Shown in pieces: positions 1,705 through 22,112 of a DNA stretch of 37,903 nt. Numbering within the stretch: the stretch's first letter is position 1; each line of letters opens with the position of its first letter. The DNA comes from an uncultured bacterium (GTDB lineage: Bacteria > Krumholzibacteriota > Krumholzibacteriia > LZORAL124-64-63): contig CAIWHK010000059.1 in assembly GCA_903912525.1 (NCBI GenBank), positions 1 through 37,903 on the forward strand. Direction: 5' to 3'. The position numbers and the translations under genes are program-made. Under the pieces are notes generated by a model. It searched no databases. It saw nothing but the letters and a program-made list of their open reading frames with translations, and was not told where the DNA came from.

Positions 1705-2850
1705 CTACCGGAACATGCTCTTCAGCCCGCCCCAGGTCTCCGACTCGGCCGGGACGACCAGGCAGGTGCCCGGGCCGTTGTCCCAGTTGCTCGTCAGGTT
1801 GGTCTCGGCGGCCGCGGCGTTGTCCACGGTGAAGGTGCGGTTGCCGACGCTCTCCCACGTCGCGCAGTCGTCCTTCTTGAACTTGTACTCGAGGTTCTGC
1901 GGGATCGGCATGCCGGCCGGGAACACGATGCAGGCCTGGTAGAGGCCGGCGCCGATGGCCGTCATCGGAACGCCCGCGCCCCAGGCGGACAGCTGGGGCG
2001 CGTTGCCGATCAGGCAGACGCCGCCGGTCGTGCCGACCGCGTCGACGCAGACCTGGAAGCACACGGTCTTGGCGGAGTCCAGAAGCTGGCCGATGCCGCA
2101 GCCCAGGGGCAGGTTGTTCCAGCTGTCGGTCCCCAGCGTCACGGCCGTGGTGCCGTCGGTGGGCAGCAGCACGGAGCGGTTGCCGACGCCTTCCCACGAG
2201 TTGCAGCCGTCCTTCTTGTACTTGTACTCGAAGGCGGGGTTCGAACCGGCCGGGAACGTCACGGTGACGTTGTAGAGGTCGCCGCTGACCTGCGTCATGT
2301 TGACGCCGGTGCCCCAGCTGCCGATCTGCGCAGCCGAACCGATGACGCAGGGCGCGCCGCTGGTGGGCTCGCCGCTCATGCAGACCTTGAACGTCACATC
2401 GACGTTGTTCGGCAGCACGTTGGTCACGTTGTAGGTCAGGGGGTCGGCATGGCCGGCCTGGTCGTTGATCGCGGTGAAGCTCGAGCCGTCGGTCAGGTCG
2501 AGGGCCGTGAAGTCGCAGGTCACGGTGCTGGCGCCGGCCAGCATGGACTGCGGGACCTGGGCCGTGTACTCGTCGTTGGCGCCCACGTCGCCCAGGAAGC
2601 TCAGGGTCGTGCTGTAGGTGCCGCCGAGGTTGTTCGTGACGTCCATCTGCACGGAGATGTCCGCGCCCTGGCCGGCCGCGTCGGTGACGCCGCCCTTCCA
2701 CACCTGTACGTAGACGCTGAACGGACCGGTCGGGACCTGCAGGCTGCCGGCGTTCGGCCACACATTGCCGGCCCAACCGATGGCGGCCAGCGACTGGCCG
2801 GCGGCGAGCATCGCCAGGGCGATGACCGCGAGCGTGATCAACTTCTTCAT
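1705..2850 (-). CDS. Secreted starch-binding protein with tandem CBM20 modules
   Basis: A 381-residue exported protein: signal peptide (1-23), a beta-rich domain of unknown family (about 24-142), then two copies (about 150-250 and 262-363) of a module with CBM20 hallmarks. These are V/C-L/V-I-G near the start, a S-W-G or A-W-G turn, E-Y-K-[YF]-K, and W-E-x-V-G-N-R, where the Trp and the N-R turn belong to the starch-binding face. No catalytic domain is present, so it is probably a binding protein that holds alpha-glucan near the neighbouring amylases. The start has an excellent Shine-Dalgarno (GGAGG, 5 bases upstream). The last nine residues, W-G-G-L-K-S-M-F-R, match the ending of the protein at 8831-9430. 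It lies downstream of the GH13 gene on the same strand, with its own candidate promoter. Confidence 0.8.
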   Translation of the reverse strand: MKKLITLAVIALAMLAAGQSLAAIGWAGNVWPNAGSLQVPTGPFSVYVQVWKGGVTDAAGQGADISVQMDVTNNLGGTYSTTLSFLGDVGANDEYTAQVPQSMLAGASTVTCDFTALDLTDGSSFTAINDQAGHADPLTYNVTNVLPNNVDVTFKVCMSGEPTSGAPCVIGSAAQIGSWGTGVNMTQVSGDLYNVTVTFPAGSNPAFEYKYKKDGCNSWEGVGNRSVLLPTDGTTAVTLGTDSWNNLPLGCGIGQLLDSAKTVCFQVCVDAVGTTGGVCLIGNAPQLSAWGAGVPMTAIGAGLYQACIVFPAGMPIPQNLEYKFKKDDCATWESVGNRTFTVDNAAAAETNLTSNWDNGPGTCLVVPAESETWGGLKSMFR

Positions 2851-3023
2851 GGTTGCCTCCTGAAATGACTTCTGTCCCGTGTGAACGCCAGGGTGACGGC
2901 GGTGACGGGCGACTGACGCAAACGACGGGCGACCGCGCACGCGGGAGCGCCTGCCGACGACCCGCTGACCGGGGGTGGCTTTGCTGCCACCCCCCGCCAT
3001 GGGACACGAATTACCAAGAGGAT

Positions 3024-3052
3024 ATTATCACAAAACGAGGTCCAATTGCCAG
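3024..3052 (-). promoter_or_regulatory. Candidate promoter of the CBM20 protein gene
   Basis: Read on the minus strand: CTGGCA (3047-3052), a 17-base spacer and GATAAT (3024-3029), a five-of-six -10 match. It lies in an AT-rich island between the GH13 stop codon and the CBM20 gene, about 175 bases before that start. It suggests that this gene can be transcribed independently of the amylase. Confidence 0.45.
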
Positions 3053-3061
3053 ATTATTCCG

Positions 3062-6000
3062 TCAATTGAGCAAAATTGCCCCGCTCAGCGCCGGCACCGT
3101 GATGGTGATATCCCCACCCCGCAGGTCCAGTTTGTCACCGGTCTTGAAACTGGCGCCGGCGGCCTGCGGGAACAGGTCCGGGCCGACCTCAGCGTGCAGC
3201 ACCAGGGGCGCCCCGGCGCCCGCCAGGTCCTTCAGGACGGCCTGCGACAGGGTCAGGCTGACCGGGGTGGTCCCGGCGTTGAACGCGGCCACAGCCAGCT
3301 TGCCGTCCAGCTCCCGGGCCACGAGATAGCCCTTGCCCGAGGTCTGCAGGGCCGTGAACGAGCCCCGGCGCAGCACCGGCGTGTCGCGGCGCAGCCGGGT
3401 GACCTTGCCGTAGAAGTCGCGCAGGGCCTTGCGCCGGGGGTCCCCGTCGTAGCGCCAGTCCATCGGGCGGCGGCAGTCCGGGTCCTTGTCGCCGACCATG
3501 CCGATCTCGTTGCCGTACCAGATGTGCGGCATGCCCACGTAGGTCATCCCGAACATCGTGCCGAGCATCAGGCGGCGCACGTCGCCGGCGCTGGTCAGGA
3601 ACCGCACCGTGTCGTGGCTGTCCATCAGGTTCATCATCACCGCGACGGCCTGAGGCGGGTACTGGAACCGGCCCGGGCTCAGGCGGGCGTCGAACGACGA
3701 AGCGTCCAGCGAGCCCTTCCCGAAGAAGTCCATCACGGGATCGCGGAAGAACTTGTAGTTCATCGTGGCGTCGAAGCAGTCGGGACCGATCCAGCGGCCC
3801 GCATTGCCCCACAGTTCGCCCACCAGCCAGACGTCCTTCTTCACCGTGTCGCAGCGCTCGCGGAACAGCTTCCAGAACCAGAACGGCACCTCGTTGGGCA
3901 CGTCCAGGCGGAAACCGTCGATGTCGTACTCGCCCAGCCACACGTCGGCGGTCTTCAGCACGTAGTCGACCAGCGGCTGGTTGACGGTCGCCTGCGCCGT
4001 ATCCTGGACGTTGTTCTCGTCGGCGTTGCTGCGCTTCAGGTCGAAATTCAGGTTCGGGTGCAGGCCGAAACCCCACCAGCAGTCGTAGTAGTCGCTGGCG
4101 TTGAAGTCGCGGGTGTCGGGCAGCGGCCAGCGCTTGAACTCGTACCAGTTGTAGTACTGGCTCTGCGGGCCCTTCTCGACGGCGTCGCGGAAGGCGAAGT
4201 GCCAGTTGCCGGTGTGGTTGAAGGCCACGTCGACCACGATGCGGATGCCGCGCGCGTGGCAGTCCTTCACGAACGCCTTGAACTCCTCGGGCGACGCGAA
4301 GTGCGGGTCGATCGCCAGATAGTCCGTCGGGTCGTACTTGTGGTTGCTCATCCCCTGGTTCAAGGGGTTGAAGTACAGCACCGTAATGCCCAGGTCCTGC
4401 AGGTAATCCAGCTTCTGCCGGATGCCGGCGATGTCGCCGCCGTAGAACGAGAAGTAGTCGGGCTTGCCGTCGGTGCGGTACGGGCTGCGCAGGAGGCCGC
4501 CGATGTCGTACCAGTCGGCCACGGTGTGGAAGTACTCGCCGTTGACCTTGCCCGAAGCCGGCAGCTTGTTGGCGCCCGCGTACATGGGCTCCTTGAAGTC
4601 CGGGTCGTTGGCCTTGTCGCCGTTGTTGAAGCGCTCGGGGAAGATCTGGTAGACAATGCCGTCCTTGGCCCAGTCCGGGGTCAGGAACGGCGTGTGCTCG
4701 GCGGCGCGGTAGGAGAACGCCACCGGCGCGGCCTTCACCATGCCGCGGGCGCCGAAGAACTCGCGGTAGGCGCCGTCGTGGTAGGCGATCACGTACTGCA
4801 GTTCGTCGGTGGGTGAGCCCAGCTTCACCGTGGCCCGGTAGTACTGGAACGAAGCGTCCTTCTCGGCGGGCTTCATCACGACGCTGGTCTTGCTCTCGCC
4901 GGGCGTCCAGGCGCCGGCGCCCACGTTGAAGTACACGACCAGCTTGTCCACGTCCTCGAGATGCGCGCGCGCCGTCAACACGACCTCGGTCGCGCTGATC
5001 GGGTTGCACGTCGAGTAGTCGAAGGTGGGTTCGAGATCGTCGCTGAACACGGCGCCGTCGTTGCGGCCGATCTTGATGGTCGCAAACGAGGCGTCCACCT
5101 TCAGCACCGAGTTCTTGCCGCCGAAGCCGTCGTCGCTCGCCTCGGCGTTGTTCGGGTCCTGCTTCCAGTTGCCGTCGACGACGAACTTGTACTGGTAGGT
5201 GCCCTGCGCCAGCAGCAGTTTGACGGTGTAGGTGCCGTCCTTGTCGGGGTCGGTCATGCGGGTCTTGGAGTCGTTCCAGTCGTTGAACGTGCCGGCCAGG
5301 AAGACGTTCGTCACGCCGGAGATCACGGGCGTGAAGGCGAACTCGACCGAGCGCACTTCGCCGTCGCCAGCCGCCGCCGCCGCACCGCCGGCCGCCGGGG
5401 CCGCGCCGCCGGCCGCCGCCGCATCGATGCGATCCTTGCCCGCCGGCACCTTCACCACGGAATTCTTGCCGCCCAGGCCGTCGTCAGCAGCCGCCGGATT
5501 GGCCGCGTCCTGCTTCCAGTTCCCGTCCTCGACGAACTTGTACATGTAGCTGCCCGGGGCCAGGTCCATGACCAGCGTCCAGGTGCCGTCCTTGTTCGTC
5601 ATCGGGTTGGCGCTGTCGCTCCAGCCGTTGAACTCGCCCGCCAGGCACACCTTGCCGACGCCGGGCGCCGCATGCGAGAACGTGACCGCGCACTTGCCAC
5701 CGGCCGTTGGCTTCGTCGCCGCAGGAGCCGGGGCCGCCTTGGCCGCAGGCGCCGCCACGGGCGCCACCGCGCCACCGGCGCCGACCTTCATCACCGAGTT
5801 GTTGCCGCCGAAGCCGTCGGGCGCCGCCTCAGGATTGCCCGCGTCCTGCTTCCAGTTGCCGTCGACGACGAACTTGTACATGTAGCTGCCCGGCGCGAGG
5901 TTCATGACCAGCGTCCAGGCATCGCCGTCCTTCGTCATCGGGTTGGCGCTGTCGCTCCAGCTGTTGAACTCGCCCGCCAGGCACACCTTGCCGGCGCCAG

Positions 6001-6460
6001 GGGCGTCGCAGCGGAACGTGACCGGGGCCGTGCCGCCGGCCGCGGGCGCCGCCGGGGCAGCCTTCGCCACCGGCGTGGCCGCCACGGCTGCAGGAGCCGC
6101 ACCGCCCACCTTAACGGCGGCGACACCCTCGCCCACCTTGACGATCGAGTTGTTGCCGCCGAAGCCGTCGGGAGCCGCCTCGGGGTTACCCGCGTCCTGC
6201 TTCCAATTGCCGTCGACGACGAACTTGTACATATAGCTGCCCGGCGCGAGGTCCATGACCAGCGTCCAGGTGCCGCCATCGTTCGTCATCGGGTTGGCAC
6301 TGTCGCTCCAGCCGTTGAATTCACCGGCCAGGCTGACCTTGCCGGCGCCGGCAGCGGAGTGGGTGAAGGTCACCGGGACGGCGCTCGCCGTGGCGGCCAA
6401 AATGCACAGCACGACGGCCAGCAGGACCGTCGGAGACACGGGTCGTAGCATCGGGCGCAT
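3062..6460 (-). CDS. Secreted GH13 alpha-glucan hydrolase with four CBM48-like modules
   Basis: A 1132-residue exported enzyme with signal peptide 1-27. Three nearly identical glycogen-binding (CBM48-like) modules at about 28-110, 146-226 and 257-338 are joined by Ala/Pro linkers, and a more diverged fourth lies at 368-455. A further beta domain (about 470-585) precedes the (beta/alpha)8 barrel (about 597-1020) and a C-terminal beta domain. All GH13 motifs are intact: D744-x-x-x-N-H749 (region I), G-F-R-L-D853 (nucleophile), G-E882 (acid/base) and H949-D950 (region IV). The barrel resembles neopullulanase/cyclomaltodextrinase-type enzymes, but the exact subfamily and specificity are uncertain. 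The start follows GGAG by 6 bases. It is divergent from the GH13 lipoprotein gene at 6677. Confidence 0.88.
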   Translation of the reverse strand: MRPMLRPVSPTVLLAVVLCILAATASAVPVTFTHSAAGAGKVSLAGEFNGWSDSANPMTNDGGTWTLVMDLAPGSYMYKFVVDGNWKQDAGNPEAAPDGFGGNNSIVKVGEGVAAVKVGGAAPAAVAATPVAKAAPAAPAAGGTAPVTFRCDAPGAGKVCLAGEFNSWSDSANPMTKDGDAWTLVMNLAPGSYMYKFVVDGNWKQDAGNPEAAPDGFGGNNSVMKVGAGGAVAPVAAPAAKAAPAPAATKPTAGGKCAVTFSHAAPGVGKVCLAGEFNGWSDSANPMTNKDGTWTLVMDLAPGSYMYKFVEDGNWKQDAANPAAADDGLGGKNSVVKVPAGKDRIDAAAAGGAAPAAGGAAAAAGDGEVRSVEFAFTPVISGVTNVFLAGTFNDWNDSKTRMTDPDKDGTYTVKLLLAQGTYQYKFVVDGNWKQDPNNAEASDDGFGGKNSVLKVDASFATIKIGRNDGAVFSDDLEPTFDYSTCNPISATEVVLTARAHLEDVDKLVVYFNVGAGAWTPGESKTSVVMKPAEKDASFQYYRATVKLGSPTDELQYVIAYHDGAYREFFGARGMVKAAPVAFSYRAAEHTPFLTPDWAKDGIVYQIFPERFNNGDKANDPDFKEPMYAGANKLPASGKVNGEYFHTVADWYDIGGLLRSPYRTDGKPDYFSFYGGDIAGIRQKLDYLQDLGITVLYFNPLNQGMSNHKYDPTDYLAIDPHFASPEEFKAFVKDCHARGIRIVVDVAFNHTGNWHFAFRDAVEKGPQSQYYNWYEFKRWPLPDTRDFNASDYYDCWWGFGLHPNLNFDLKRSNADENNVQDTAQATVNQPLVDYVLKTADVWLGEYDIDGFRLDVPNEVPFWFWKLFRERCDTVKKDVWLVGELWGNAGRWIGPDCFDATMNYKFFRDPVMDFFGKGSLDASSFDARLSPGRFQYPPQAVAVMMNLMDSHDTVRFLTSAGDVRRLMLGTMFGMTYVGMPHIWYGNEIGMVGDKDPDCRRPMDWRYDGDPRRKALRDFYGKVTRLRRDTPVLRRGSFTALQTSGKGYLVARELDGKLAVAAFNAGTTPVSLTLSQAVLKDLAGAGAPLVLHAEVGPDLFPQAAGASFKTGDKLDLRGGDITITVPALSGAILLN
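5096..6379 (-). repeat. Array of four CBM48-like coding repeats
   Basis: Units lie at about 6379-6131, 6025-5783, 5692-5447 and 5359-5096. The first three share long identical peptides (for example L-A-G-E-F-N-[GS]-W-S-D-S-A-N-P-M-T and G-S-Y-M-Y-K-F-V) and much of the underlying DNA. The fourth is clearly diverged. This points to recent duplication or gene conversion among the first three. Confidence 0.85.
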
Positions 6461-6676
6461 GGATAGGCTCCTGAGGCAGGGTGAAGAAGGCCGCAGCGCG
6501 GGAAGCGGGCGACCGATCGACTTTATCGCTCCCGGGGGTCCTAATCAAGGAGCTTGCCCGGTGGCCCGGGCTCCCCTGTTCAATCGGATGAGGATATGTT
6601 ACAATTGGTGAGTAATTTTGCTCCCATTTAATCTCAGGTTCGCCGGCGCGTCCACGTGCCCCGAGGAGTACCCCAC
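6461..6676. promoter_or_regulatory. Divergent promoter region between two GH13 genes
   Basis: This 216-base interval separates divergently transcribed GH13 genes and must hold promoters for both. An AT-rich island at 6579-6630 includes TACAAT (6600-6605), a five-of-six -10 match for the plus-strand gene, but its -35 (TGTTCA at 6577-6582) is poor. I see no convincing operator. Confidence 0.35.
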
Positions 6677-8605
6677 ATGCAGCGGACTTTCCCGCGCCCC
6701 GGGCGCCTCCTGCGAACCGGCCCATGGGCGCCCGCCCTGGTAGCGATGCTGCTGGCTGCTGCCTGCCTGCTGCCCGGCTGCGGCGCCGACCGTGCGGCCC
6801 CCGTGGCGCCGACCGCCCCGACCGTGCCGATCGACGACGACCTGGCCAAGGCCCGCACCGACACGTTCATCCTGCACGCCTACGCAGTCGACTCGGTCTA
6901 CCTGGCCGGCAGCCAGAACGCCTGGGCCACGGCCGACCCGACCTGGCAGCTGACCCTGCAGCCGGACGGCTACACCTGGCGCCTGATCCGCAGCGTCGCC
7001 GACGGGCTGTTGACCTACAAGTTCGTCCTCAGGAAGGGCGCCGCGACGCTGTGGCTGACCGACCCCAACGCCTACGAGGTCGTGACCGACGGCTACTCGG
7101 GCAGCCCCGCCAACTGGAACGCCGTGCGCGGGCGCACCTTCACGAAGCCCCGCCCCCTCGGCTGGACCATCGATCGCTCGCGCCTGGTCATCTACGAGAT
7201 CGCCCCGAACGATTTCAGCGCCGCGGGCACGTTTTCCGCCACGCAGGCGGGCCTGACCTCGGTCGCCAACCTGGCCGACCTGGGCGTCAACGCCATCCAG
7301 CTGATGCCGGTCACGGCGCCGTCGTACAACGGCTGGGGCTACGACCCCGTGCTGCAGGCCGCGCCGAACCCGAGCTACGGCAATCCCGTCACCTTCGCCG
7401 CGCTGGTCGATGCCGCGCACGCCCGCGGCATGGCTGTCATCGTCGATGCGGTGCTCAACCACATGGCCGGCGGCGCCACGATCAAGCAGCTGGACACCTT
7501 TGCCGGCGGCAACCACTTCACGACCACCGAAGCCAATCCCTGGGGCATGGTCGAGCTGAACTTCAGCGACCCGGCCCTGAAGGCGCACATCCTGGCCTCG
7601 GTTTGCCACTGGGTCGACGCCTACAACATCGACGGCTTCCGCTTCGACTACGTGGGCGGCGAGCCCTACACCACCTGGGACTGGCTGAGGACCGAGCTGC
7701 GCGCGCGCTACCCGAACCTGCTGCTGATCGGCGAGGACTTCAACTACGCCTCGTCGGGCAACTCCGTCACCCACGGCTATGACGCGCAGTGGGGCGGCAA
7801 CCACACCGACAGCTGGGGCGGCGGCGGCAACAACTTCAACCAGGTGGCGATCACGGCGCTGACCGAGCGCGGCTTCGCGACCCGCGCCTCGACCACCCCG
7901 ACGGTCGGCGCCTGGGGCGTCCCCTACAACAACATGTGGGCGATGGCGAATGTGATCTCCGCCAACAGCGGCTACAGCGGGCCCGGCTGGGGCGACGGAT
8001 TCAGCGACGTGAAGTACCTCGAGAGCCACGACGAGAATCGCGTGGTGTGGTCGGTGAACACGAACGGCTCGACCGGCGCGAAGGCGATCGGCGGCCTGCA
8101 GAAAGCGCGCCTCGGCGCCATCGTCTCGCTGACCTCGGTCGGCATCCCGATGATCTACAACGGCCAGGAGATCGGCTCGGGTGAATTGCGCCCGGCCAGC
8201 CCGACCACCACCAAGATCAACTGGGCCGCCGCCGACGCCTCGCTGCGCCTGGCCTACAAGCGCCTGATCGACCTGCGCCTCGAGCGCGCGGCGCTGCAGA
8301 GCGAGTACACGTTCTTCCCCTGGCGCGGCAGCAACCTCGACCAGACCGAGTACACGCTCACCTACTGGCGCAGTTCGACGTCCAACAGTGCGGCGGCCGA
8401 GTTCGTCGTGGCCTGCAACTTCGACCATGTCGACCACACGTGGAACGTCTCGTTCCCGTCCAGTGGCGCCTGGGTGAAGCTGGATCTGGCAGCCGACAAC
8501 GTGCAGATGGAGACGATCAGCGGGGCCTCGCGGCCGACCACCCTGCCCGCATCGACGGCGCTGATCTGGATCAAGGCCGACGGGAGCACGGGCGTGCCGC
8601 AATAG
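6677..8605 (+). CDS. GH13 alpha-glucan-active lipoprotein with N-terminal CBM48
   Basis: A 642-residue lipoprotein with lipobox L-P-G-C35. A CBM48-like module (about 61-150) precedes a GH13 barrel with intact motifs: D257-x-x-x-N-H262, G-F-R-F-D324 (nucleophile), I-G-E353 (acid/base) and S-H451-D452. The CBM48-plus-GH13 order and G-x-D-P-style loops recall branching-enzyme, isoamylase or maltooligosyltrehalose-type members, but membrane anchoring argues for a role in breaking down imported or surface-bound glucan. Specificity cannot be fixed. The ATG at 6677 is preferred over the GTG at 6656 because GAGGAG (6662-6667) stands 9 bases before it. It is divergent from the secreted multi-CBM48 GH13, and the two probably act on the same polysaccharide in sequence. 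Confidence 0.85.
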   Translation: MQRTFPRPGRLLRTGPWAPALVAMLLAAACLLPGCGADRAAPVAPTAPTVPIDDDLAKARTDTFILHAYAVDSVYLAGSQNAWATADPTWQLTLQPDGYTWRLIRSVADGLLTYKFVLRKGAATLWLTDPNAYEVVTDGYSGSPANWNAVRGRTFTKPRPLGWTIDRSRLVIYEIAPNDFSAAGTFSATQAGLTSVANLADLGVNAIQLMPVTAPSYNGWGYDPVLQAAPNPSYGNPVTFAALVDAAHARGMAVIVDAVLNHMAGGATIKQLDTFAGGNHFTTTEANPWGMVELNFSDPALKAHILASVCHWVDAYNIDGFRFDYVGGEPYTTWDWLRTELRARYPNLLLIGEDFNYASSGNSVTHGYDAQWGGNHTDSWGGGGNNFNQVAITALTERGFATRASTTPTVGAWGVPYNNMWAMANVISANSGYSGPGWGDGFSDVKYLESHDENRVVWSVNTNGSTGAKAIGGLQKARLGAIVSLTSVGIPMIYNGQEIGSGELRPASPTTTKINWAAADASLRLAYKRLIDLRLERAALQSEYTFFPWRGSNLDQTEYTLTYWRSSTSNSAAAEFVVACNFDHVDHTWNVSFPSSGAWVKLDLAADNVQMETISGASRPTTLPASTALIWIKADGSTGVPQ

Positions 8606-8628
8606 CGTCGGCGTGGCCTCGCCCTCCA

Positions 8629-8661
8629 ACGCGGGACCCCGGCCTGGCTGGGGTCCCGCGT
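8629..8661 (+). terminator. Hairpin after the GH13 lipoprotein gene
   Basis: A 12-bp perfect GC-rich stem (8629-8640 with 8650-8661) with a 9-base loop, 23 bases after the stop codon. The following T-tract is poor, so termination may be only partly intrinsic. Confidence 0.5.
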
Positions 8662-8688
8662 CGTTCCACTAGTCCATTTCCTTAATGC

Positions 8689-8716
8689 TTGCCTCATTCA
8701 GTATAGGTGATATCCT
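8689..8716 (+). promoter_or_regulatory. Candidate promoter of the small secreted protein gene
   Basis: TTGCCT (8689-8694), a 16-base spacer and TATCCT (8711-8716), four of six matches each, in an AT-rich island right after the preceding hairpin. It would leave a leader of roughly 110 bases before the ATG at 8831. Confidence 0.35.
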
Positions 8717-8830
8717 TACATTCATTCGGGCCGGCATGGTGCGCCATGTGATGATGGGAATCCTTCTCAGGTCATCAAACGGGTGATGCGCTCCCGCGGC
8801 ACGGACCGGCCGATGATGGAAAGGGAGTCC

Positions 8831-9430
8831 ATGATGAAGATGTTGCTCATGAGCCTTGCGCTGGTCGCCACCCTGGCGGCCGCCGCCCCCGCCCTGGCCA
8901 CGTGCTCGATCACCGGCAACTGTGCCGCGACCGCGAACACCGATCCTGCCCGCCCCGGTTGGACCTACACGCTGGTGGTCACGTGGGACACCGGCACCCG
9001 CTACGCCCTCAGCCACCTGGACCTGCTGCTCGACTCCGTGGGCGCGCGCTGCAGCTGCGCCGACATGGCCGAAGGGCTGGTGCTCGTGAATCCGGCCGGC
9101 ACCTCCGACGGTGAGGGCGGTTGTGCCGTCCCCTACACCGTGGCCCTCGAGTGCCAGGGCGACCCGAGCATCCCGGGCGTCGGCGGCATCCTGTTGAAGT
9201 TCGAGCCGAACGAGGCCGACTGCCAGCCCGCCGCAACCGGCACGGCGACGTTCACCTTCAGCTCGCCGCTGCCGCCGGTGCCTGTCGACGAGGACATCCT
9301 GTCGCTGGTCGACAAGTACGGCACCCAGCATTGCTTCGGGCAGCTGACGGGTGTCTTCCCAGGCATGGCCTGCAACCCCGTGGCCGACGAGGGCCGCGCC
9401 TGGGGCGCCGTCAAGGGCCTGTACCGCTAG
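8831..9430 (+). CDS. Secreted protein of unknown function with C-terminal WGxxKxxYR ending
   Basis: A 199-residue protein with a clear signal peptide (about 1-23, ending A-L-A). The mature part is a small, probably beta-rich domain with about nine cysteines, likely disulphide-bonded outside the cytoplasm. I do not recognise its family. The ATG at 8831 follows GGGAG by 4 bases; upstream in-frame starts lack a ribosome site. The last nine residues, W-G-A-V-K-G-L-Y-R, match those of the CBM20 protein at 1705-2850 (W-G-G-L-K-S-M-F-R), although the rest of the two proteins is unrelated. This suggests a shared C-terminal signal. It is followed by a strong terminator. Confidence 0.7.
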   Translation: MMKMLLMSLALVATLAAAAPALATCSITGNCAATANTDPARPGWTYTLVVTWDTGTRYALSHLDLLLDSVGARCSCADMAEGLVLVNPAGTSDGEGGCAVPYTVALECQGDPSIPGVGGILLKFEPNEADCQPAATGTATFTFSSPLPPVPVDEDILSLVDKYGTQHCFGQLTGVFPGMACNPVADEGRAWGAVKGLYR

Positions 9431-21302: not shown

Positions 21303-22112
21303 TTACTTGGTCTCGGGGGCCTTGCAGGCACCCTCGGCCTTGGCCTTGCAGCCCGCGTCGGCCGTGGGGCAGCTCGCGCTGACCTTGCAGCCAGCCTCGA
21401 CCTTGCAGCCAGCCTGGGCGCGGTGCTTCGGGCACGCCGGGCCTTCGCCGACCATGCACATGCCGACACACGCGTCGTCATTGCCGCCGCGGCTGCAATG
21501 CGACATGGCGGCATGGGGGTTGTCGTTGCCGCAGGCGGAAGCGTGACCCTTGCCATGGCCGCACTTCTTGGCGCAGGCCTTGGCCTCGCCGTCCTTGCAC
21601 TTCGTCGCGCAAGCCGCGGCGTCGCCGCTCTTGCACTTCGTGGCACAAGCCGCAGCATCGCCGCTCTTGCACTTCGCCGCACAGGCAGCAGCATCGCCGC
21701 TCTTGCACTTCGTCGCGCAAGCCGCAGCGTCGCCGCTCTTGCACTTCGCCGCGCAAGCTGCAGCGTCGCCGCTCTTGCACTTCGTCGCGCAAGCCGCAGC
21801 GTCGCCGCTCTTGCACTTCGCCGCGCAGGCCGCAGCGTCGCCGCCGGCGCACTTCTTCGCGCAGGCCTTCTCTTCACCGTGCTTGCACGCGGCGGTGCAG
21901 GCCTCGCCCGCGCCGTGGGCGCACTTCATCCCGGCAGCCGGCGCCTCGCCGTGCATGCACGCGGCGGTGCAGGCCTGGCCTTCGGCGTGGTTACACTTCA
22001 TCCCCGCGGCAGGAGCGGCGGCGGGCGTATCGTCAGCCGTGGCCAACGCCACGCACATGATCATCGCCAGGGCGGCCGCGCTGAGCACGGCAAGGTACTT
22101 GCGAGCATTCAT
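21303..22112 (-). CDS. Exported cysteine-rich 12-residue repeat protein
   Basis: A 269-residue protein with a signal peptide (about 1-26). Residues 77-184 form nine tandem 12-residue units of the form [KA]-x-G-[DE]-x-[AK]-A-C-A-x-K-C, so two cysteines every 12 residues with a Lys before one of them. N- and C-terminal flanks carry further Cys/His motifs (G-M-K-C-x-H, A-C-T-A-A-C). The total is about 37 cysteines. The protein could bind metal ions or form a disulphide-linked rod. I know no named family for it. An excellent GGAGG-type ribosome site precedes the ATG. It lies 59 bases downstream of another exported Cys-rich gene, probably in one operon. Confidence 0.8.
   Translation of the reverse strand: MNARKYLAVLSAAALAMIMCVALATADDTPAAAPAAGMKCNHAEGQACTAACMHGEAPAAGMKCAHGAGEACTAACKHGEEKACAKKCAGGDAAACAAKCKSGDAAACATKCKSGDAAACAAKCKSGDAAACATKCKSGDAAACAAKCKSGDAAACATKCKSGDAAACATKCKDGEAKACAKKCGHGKGHASACGNDNPHAAMSHCSRGGNDDACVGMCMVGEGPACPKHRAQAGCKVEAGCKVSASCPTADAGCKAKAEGACKAPETK
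21561..21884 (-). repeat. 36-bp tandem coding repeat array (nine units)
   Basis: Nine head-to-tail 36-bp units encode the 12-residue cysteine repeat. The central units are almost identical in DNA and alternate between two codon versions (Ala-Ala-Lys and Ala-Thr-Lys before the second Cys). Such arrays expand and contract readily by slippage or recombination. Confidence 0.9.

Follow-up and report, generated by a model that had tools for sequence, protein, structure and literature searches.

The locus analyzed here raises the question of why two secreted proteins with dissimilar bodies should end in nearly the same residues. A sequence-only reading of the window (the whole 37,903-nucleotide stretch of DNA analyzed, from an uncultured member of the Krumholzibacteriota) had claimed that a CBM20 protein and a Cys-rich protein with unrelated bodies share a W-G-x-x-K-x-x-[FY]-R ending at the stop codon, and had suggested that similar endings may occur in related candidate phyla. 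It proposed that the ending might be a sorting or secretion signal comparable in role to the tags of the type IX secretion system (T9SS) or PEP-CTERM, in which case it should be enriched at the C termini of exported proteins and should co-occur with a sortase or translocon.

The shared ending is as described. The CBM20 protein finishes TWGGLKSMFR-stop (WGGLKSMFR-stop at 1705-1734, minus strand) and the Cys-rich protein AWGAVKGLYR-stop (WGAVKGLYR-stop at 9401-9430, plus strand), both fitting W-G-x-[LV]-K-x-[ML]-[FY]-R directly before the stop codon. The bodies are also unrelated as stated, in that searches with Pfam and NCBIfam profiles found CBM_20 (E=4e-16, over two stretches) in the first protein and no match in the second.

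Coordinates in the window of the two tagged proteins and their C-terminal tags
Feature	Position	Strand	Remark
Secreted CBM20 protein, 381 aa	1705..2850	-	Start codon reassigned to 2850; tag at stop
16-residue C-terminal tag VPAESETWGGLKSMFR of CBM20 protein	1708..1755	-	Stop codon 1705-1707; logo of 189 tags
Secreted Cys-rich protein, 199 aa, with tag	8831..9430	+	Start codon reassigned to 8831
16-residue C-terminal tag VADEGRAWGAVKGLYR of Cys-rich protein	9380..9427	+	Stop codon 9428-9430; logo of 189 tags

The best start codons, at 2850 (-) and 8831 (+), lie downstream of the mechanical ORF starts, and from them both proteins open with typical signal peptides as judged by a home-made heuristic; the signal-peptide-like N terminus of the CBM20 protein is MKKLITLAVIALAMLAAGQSLAA. 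The tag was kept in all homologues of the Cys-rich protein (L024, L162 and two copies in L032), the AlphaFold model of which, built from 3 sequences, had a mean pLDDT of 40. The CBM20 gene adjoins two large ORFs, 3062-6460 (-) and 6656-8605 (+), that resemble starch-active glycoside hydrolases; one has repeated N-terminal modules, the other a lipoprotein-like N terminus, and neither ends in the tag. This gene content suggests that the three genes may form a starch-use cluster. Elsewhere in the window, 21303-22112 (-) encodes a secreted-looking protein made of tandem CKSGDAAACA[AT]K repeats, without the tag.

We then counted such endings in the whole genome. The DNA pattern TGGGGNNNNVTNAARNNNNTNTWYMGNTRR, which specifies W-G-x-[ILVM]-K-x-x-[FY]-R-stop, had 30 matches in the 4.29-Mb window genome, and the reversed pattern had none; about 0.0008 (~0.001) matches per genome were expected by chance, as calculated with a pattern somewhat stricter than this one and with GC taken as 66%. 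Thus, the ending is enriched at C termini, as the sequence-only reading had supposed. A relaxed pattern found 36 places, a lower bound on tag-like endings because a further variant, WGNLKGTYR, turned up in a sample of the genome outside these 36. All 36 unique carriers began with a signal-peptide-like N terminus, compared with 47 of 132 background ORFs (36%) drawn from a 400-kb sample of the same genome; both figures come from the same permissive home-made heuristic rather than a trained predictor, and a stricter rule accepted 22 of the 132 background ORFs. The expected enrichment among exported proteins was therefore also found, at the level of this heuristic.

After removal of the signal peptide and tail, the 36 carriers fell into 28 groups at BLAST E<1e-3, a few of them small paralogous groups. 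The carriers were mostly small (median open frame, ~270 aa), and the domains recognized among them included CBM20, beta-helix, CHRD, DUF642, LTD and PPC. No model in Pfam or NCBIfam covered the tail in profile searches of the carriers. The neighborhoods of tagged genes contained no recurring partner enzyme, apart from beta-helix paralogues and a conserved gene order in Bacteroidota that is described below.

A logo of 189 unique tails extended the shared sequence to a tag of ~16 residues, [VTS]-[PA]-[VTA]-E-x-x-[ST]-W-G-x-[IVL]-K-[ASG]-[LMI]-[YF]-R. The W and K were present in 100% of the tags, the G in 97% and the final R in 98%, although the search patterns partly fixed these values; no such selection acted on the lead-in (positions -16 to -10). 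The motif followed by a non-stop codon was listed at 78 more places in 69 genomes. In 20 stretches around such copies, all 22 resolved motif copies terminated 1 to 6 residues later, with ends such as YRE, YRD, YSE, YRQ and YRGDNGAR, so that the motif was C-terminal wherever it was checked. Across 16 pairs from the window genome and one of its genus mates, identity was 94% in the tail core, compared with 83% in the body and 76% in the seven residues preceding the core. AlphaFold modelled the tag as a low-confidence detached helix, not a beta strand. We considered an amphipathic helix and found that the hydrophobic moment exceeded that of per-sequence shuffles, but so, equally, did strand periodicity, and a common-permutation null gave 0.21; a helix of this kind is not established.

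The endings suggested for related candidate phyla do exist there. Within the Krumholzibacteriota, 66 of 69 genomes carried the tag, with 490 matches in total and none for the reversed control; the mean was 11.5 tags per genome within the window's family and 3 in the rest of the phylum. Genomes from named 'Candidatus Krumholzibacteriia' records had SprA at coordinates identical to those in members of this set, which identifies the phylum. Most of the genomes examined were metagenome-assembled genomes (MAGs). Among the matches listed in a scan of the wider collection were Eisenbacteria, Krumholzibacteriia, other FCB-type MAGs, Ignavibacteria and Hymenobacter. In Bacteroidota, the tag occurred in 49 of 296 genomes, in exactly one copy each. 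The single match among 396 genomes of a negative-control phylum was in a suspect Actinobacteria MAG, RBG_16_64_13 (L075), which is why we regard its contig as probably mis-binned; that contig and those of two Kerfeldbacteria MAGs (L044 and L108), all three from SprA-negative MAGs, probably came from FCB organisms. The open-licence literature yielded nothing on the tag peptides or on T9SS in these phyla, and the tag, absent from that literature and from Pfam and NCBIfam, is apparently undescribed.

Bacteroidota and Ignavibacteria carry the tag on one single-copy FN3-like secreted protein. Nearly all of the Bacteroidota loci examined encoded a signal peptide, an FN3-like domain and then [KR][TS]WG[ST]IK[AS][ML]FR (most of L207-L233, plus L058, L069, L070, L072, L081, L083, L089, L115, L125 and L141). 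The body was predicted by AlphaFold with pLDDT >90 over most of its length, and Foldseek matched this model to FN3 domains. In T9SS-positive Bacteroidota, this protein has a near-invariant tail, a diverged body and no family name, and in many Bacteroidota genomes its gene adjoins MatE, SpoIID, Maf and LPG_synthase_TM genes. With one tagged protein per Bacteroidota genome, a specific binding partner would suit the data no less than a general route for sorting.

We found that the tag co-occurs with T9SS, in line with the co-occurrence with a sortase or translocon that had been anticipated. All 69 Krumholzibacteriota genomes had matches to SprA, to T9SS type A C-terminal domains (CTDs) and to PorU-type sortases, the PorU match lying above the curated cut-off in 50 of them, including the window genome. 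Another genome of the window's genus (G031) has two full-length PorU-type sortases in tandem (C121:57837-61268 and 62789-66184). Of 50 named tag-bearing genomes, 47 had SprA; the other 3 were small or suspect MAGs. All 49 tag-positive Bacteroidota genomes had SprA and none of the 69 SprA-negative ones had the tag (Fisher P=1e-6, with phylogeny ignored), an association that is partly phylogenetic because T9SS is inherited by clade; 178 SprA-positive Bacteroidota genomes had no tag. The tag is thus present essentially only where SprA is. Viewed as T9SS cargo, the carriers combine a Sec signal peptide (36 of 36, by the heuristic) with a genome that encodes the translocon, both in the phylum and in tag-positive Bacteroidota, and yet none of the 36 tagged proteins of the window genome scored above the cut-off of TIGR04183, the profile for the type A sorting domain.

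The most informative finding is the interchange of CTD and tag among homologues. Homologues of tagged proteins that lacked the strict tag mostly ended in a degenerate tag or in a T9SS CTD. Adjacent genes showed the same alternation, with one CTD and one tag in each of an LTD-like pair that was 39% identical (L049), a plastocyanin-like (cupredoxin) pair that was 49% identical (L240) and a beta-helix pair (L099). We found no protein with both endings. The median frame was 744 residues for CTD proteins, in a sample of 38 found by regular expression, versus 271 for tagged proteins.

Taken together, these results make it very probable that the tag is a C-terminal sorting tag, and our best reading is that it is a second, short one for delivery to the envelope or surface. 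The N-terminal signal peptide would take the tagged protein into the periplasm, where its body would fold while the tag stayed exposed, and a dedicated outer-membrane receptor would then bind the tag and direct the protein onto the cell surface or out of the cell. The likeliest reader would be T9SS or a T9SS-linked branch, for which the tag would serve as a second, shorter alternative to the type A CTD, a proposal to which we give an even chance. The earlier idea of a sorting or secretion signal is therefore supported as regards enrichment, export-type N termini and modularity, whereas the machinery is something that we infer.

Several other explanations have to be weighed against T9SS reading the tag. 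The tag could be a T9SS-independent signal for envelope sorting or retention, bound non-covalently or cleaved by an outer-membrane or surface receptor, with SprA co-occurring by ancestry alone; we regard this as a serious alternative, though a somewhat improbable one. It would account for the lack of CTD motifs, for the detached helix of the low-confidence AlphaFold model and for the many SprA-positive Bacteroidota, the majority, without the tag, and the near-invariant residues speak for a specific receptor. It sits poorly with the alternation of CTD and tag on homologous and adjacent proteins and with the complete absence of the tag from SprA-negative Bacteroidota. A fuller version of this explanation, a second FCB sorting pathway independent of T9SS, with its own receptor and with one client in Bacteroidota and Ignavibacteria and dozens in Krumholzibacteriota and Eisenbacteria, seems to us doubtful. 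We think it unlikely that the tag is instead a protein-interaction motif, such that the Bacteroidota FN3-like protein (FN3 plus RTWGSIKAMFR) would serve as one subunit in an envelope complex, its terminal peptide having been copied onto other secreted proteins as a dockerin-like tether to that complex or matrix. The single copy, near-invariant tail and diverged body of that protein, and its conserved position beside the MatE, SpoIID, Maf and LPG_synthase_TM genes, would suit such a role, but in Krumholzibacteriota up to ~36 mostly unrelated proteins have the tag as mostly their sole common feature, and the tag alternates with a secretion CTD.

Covalent anchoring of the exosortase or sortase type, as for PEP-CTERM proteins, we consider very improbable. 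A short C-terminal tag with a P/E-containing lead-in and a basic end recalls such signals, and some of the other families in the phylum have exosortase, but no transmembrane segment precedes the basic end and the enzyme is missing from the window's family, which contradicts an EpsH-type system. Chance, or homology of a common C-terminal domain, we regard as practically out of the question: nothing beyond the few small paralogous groups points that way, and it is contradicted by the 30 matches against none in the control and ~0.001 expected, and by the 28 groups without detectable body similarity.

If the preferred reading, a sorting tag read by T9SS or a branch of it, is true, it would show that T9SS, or a companion route, can use a signal well below the size of those in the papers cited below. 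Many exported proteins of uncultured FCB phyla are without a predicted destination, and a 16-residue tag would allow them to be annotated as sorted cargo; the single-copy Bacteroidota protein offers a culturable entry point, in Hymenobacter, to the receptor.

Among known C-terminal signals, two have little in common with the tag. We did not find an LPXTG-like motif with a transmembrane segment in the tag logo, and the terminal aromatic residue of the beta-signal by which BAM recognizes beta-barrels is replaced by R in 98% of tags; the carriers with known domains belong to the CBM20, cupredoxin, LTD and beta-helix types, with no barrels among them. PEP-CTERM/exosortase offers a closer parallel as a modular C-terminal tag recognized by genome-wide recurrence and phylogenetic profiling (PMC1569441). 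Its tripartite build of motif, transmembrane helix and basic tail is not shared, in that the tail logo has no hydrophobic span ahead of the end, and exosortase (PF09721) was absent from the window genome and from every one of the 33 genomes in its family, the richest in tags; for these two reasons the earlier comparison with PEP-CTERM fails mechanistically. Several other families of the phylum do have exosortase (G001, G003-G006, G009, G011, G012, G014-G024, G026-G030 and G068), and different C-terminal sorting systems may therefore dominate in different families.

Signals of T9SS come nearer. Prevotella intermedia has CTDs of ~40-55 residues beside long ones, so that a shortened signal coexists with long CTDs in one organism, but these short CTDs have three strands, retain motifs B, D and E and undergo cleavage and glycosylation (PMC11969387), whereas the tag is far shorter and lacks motifs B and D. 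The extreme C terminus of the Bacteroidota T9SS CTD is essential (PMC11285876), and HBP35 was found to have its targeting signal within the last 22 residues, as cited in the same paper. T9SS targeting information can thus sit in a very short C-terminal stretch, although the HBP35 signal, unlike the tag, is the terminal part of a CTD and contains beta strands and motifs D/E. It is not known to contain a W-G motif. Compared with the type A CTD itself (TIGR04183, Por_Secre_tail), the tag is much shorter (~16 versus ~72 residues), is borne by smaller proteins, and has an invariant W-G in place of the WDG, GxY and Ig fold. Both end in a basic residue, a variable residue, a hydrophobic stretch and a second basic residue ([KR] at -6, L at -3 and [RK] at -1 in the CTD; K at -5, L/M at -3, Y/F at -2 and R at -1 in the tag). 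At the level of sequence, the K and R of the tag thus resemble the conserved basic residue in the last strand of the CTD and its essential C-terminal residues (motif C-t./E; PMC11285876). Both are C-terminal on unrelated Sec-exported proteins, in the same genomes and on the same domain types, and it is because homologous domains carry either the CTD or the tag that the earlier comparison with T9SS proves apt.
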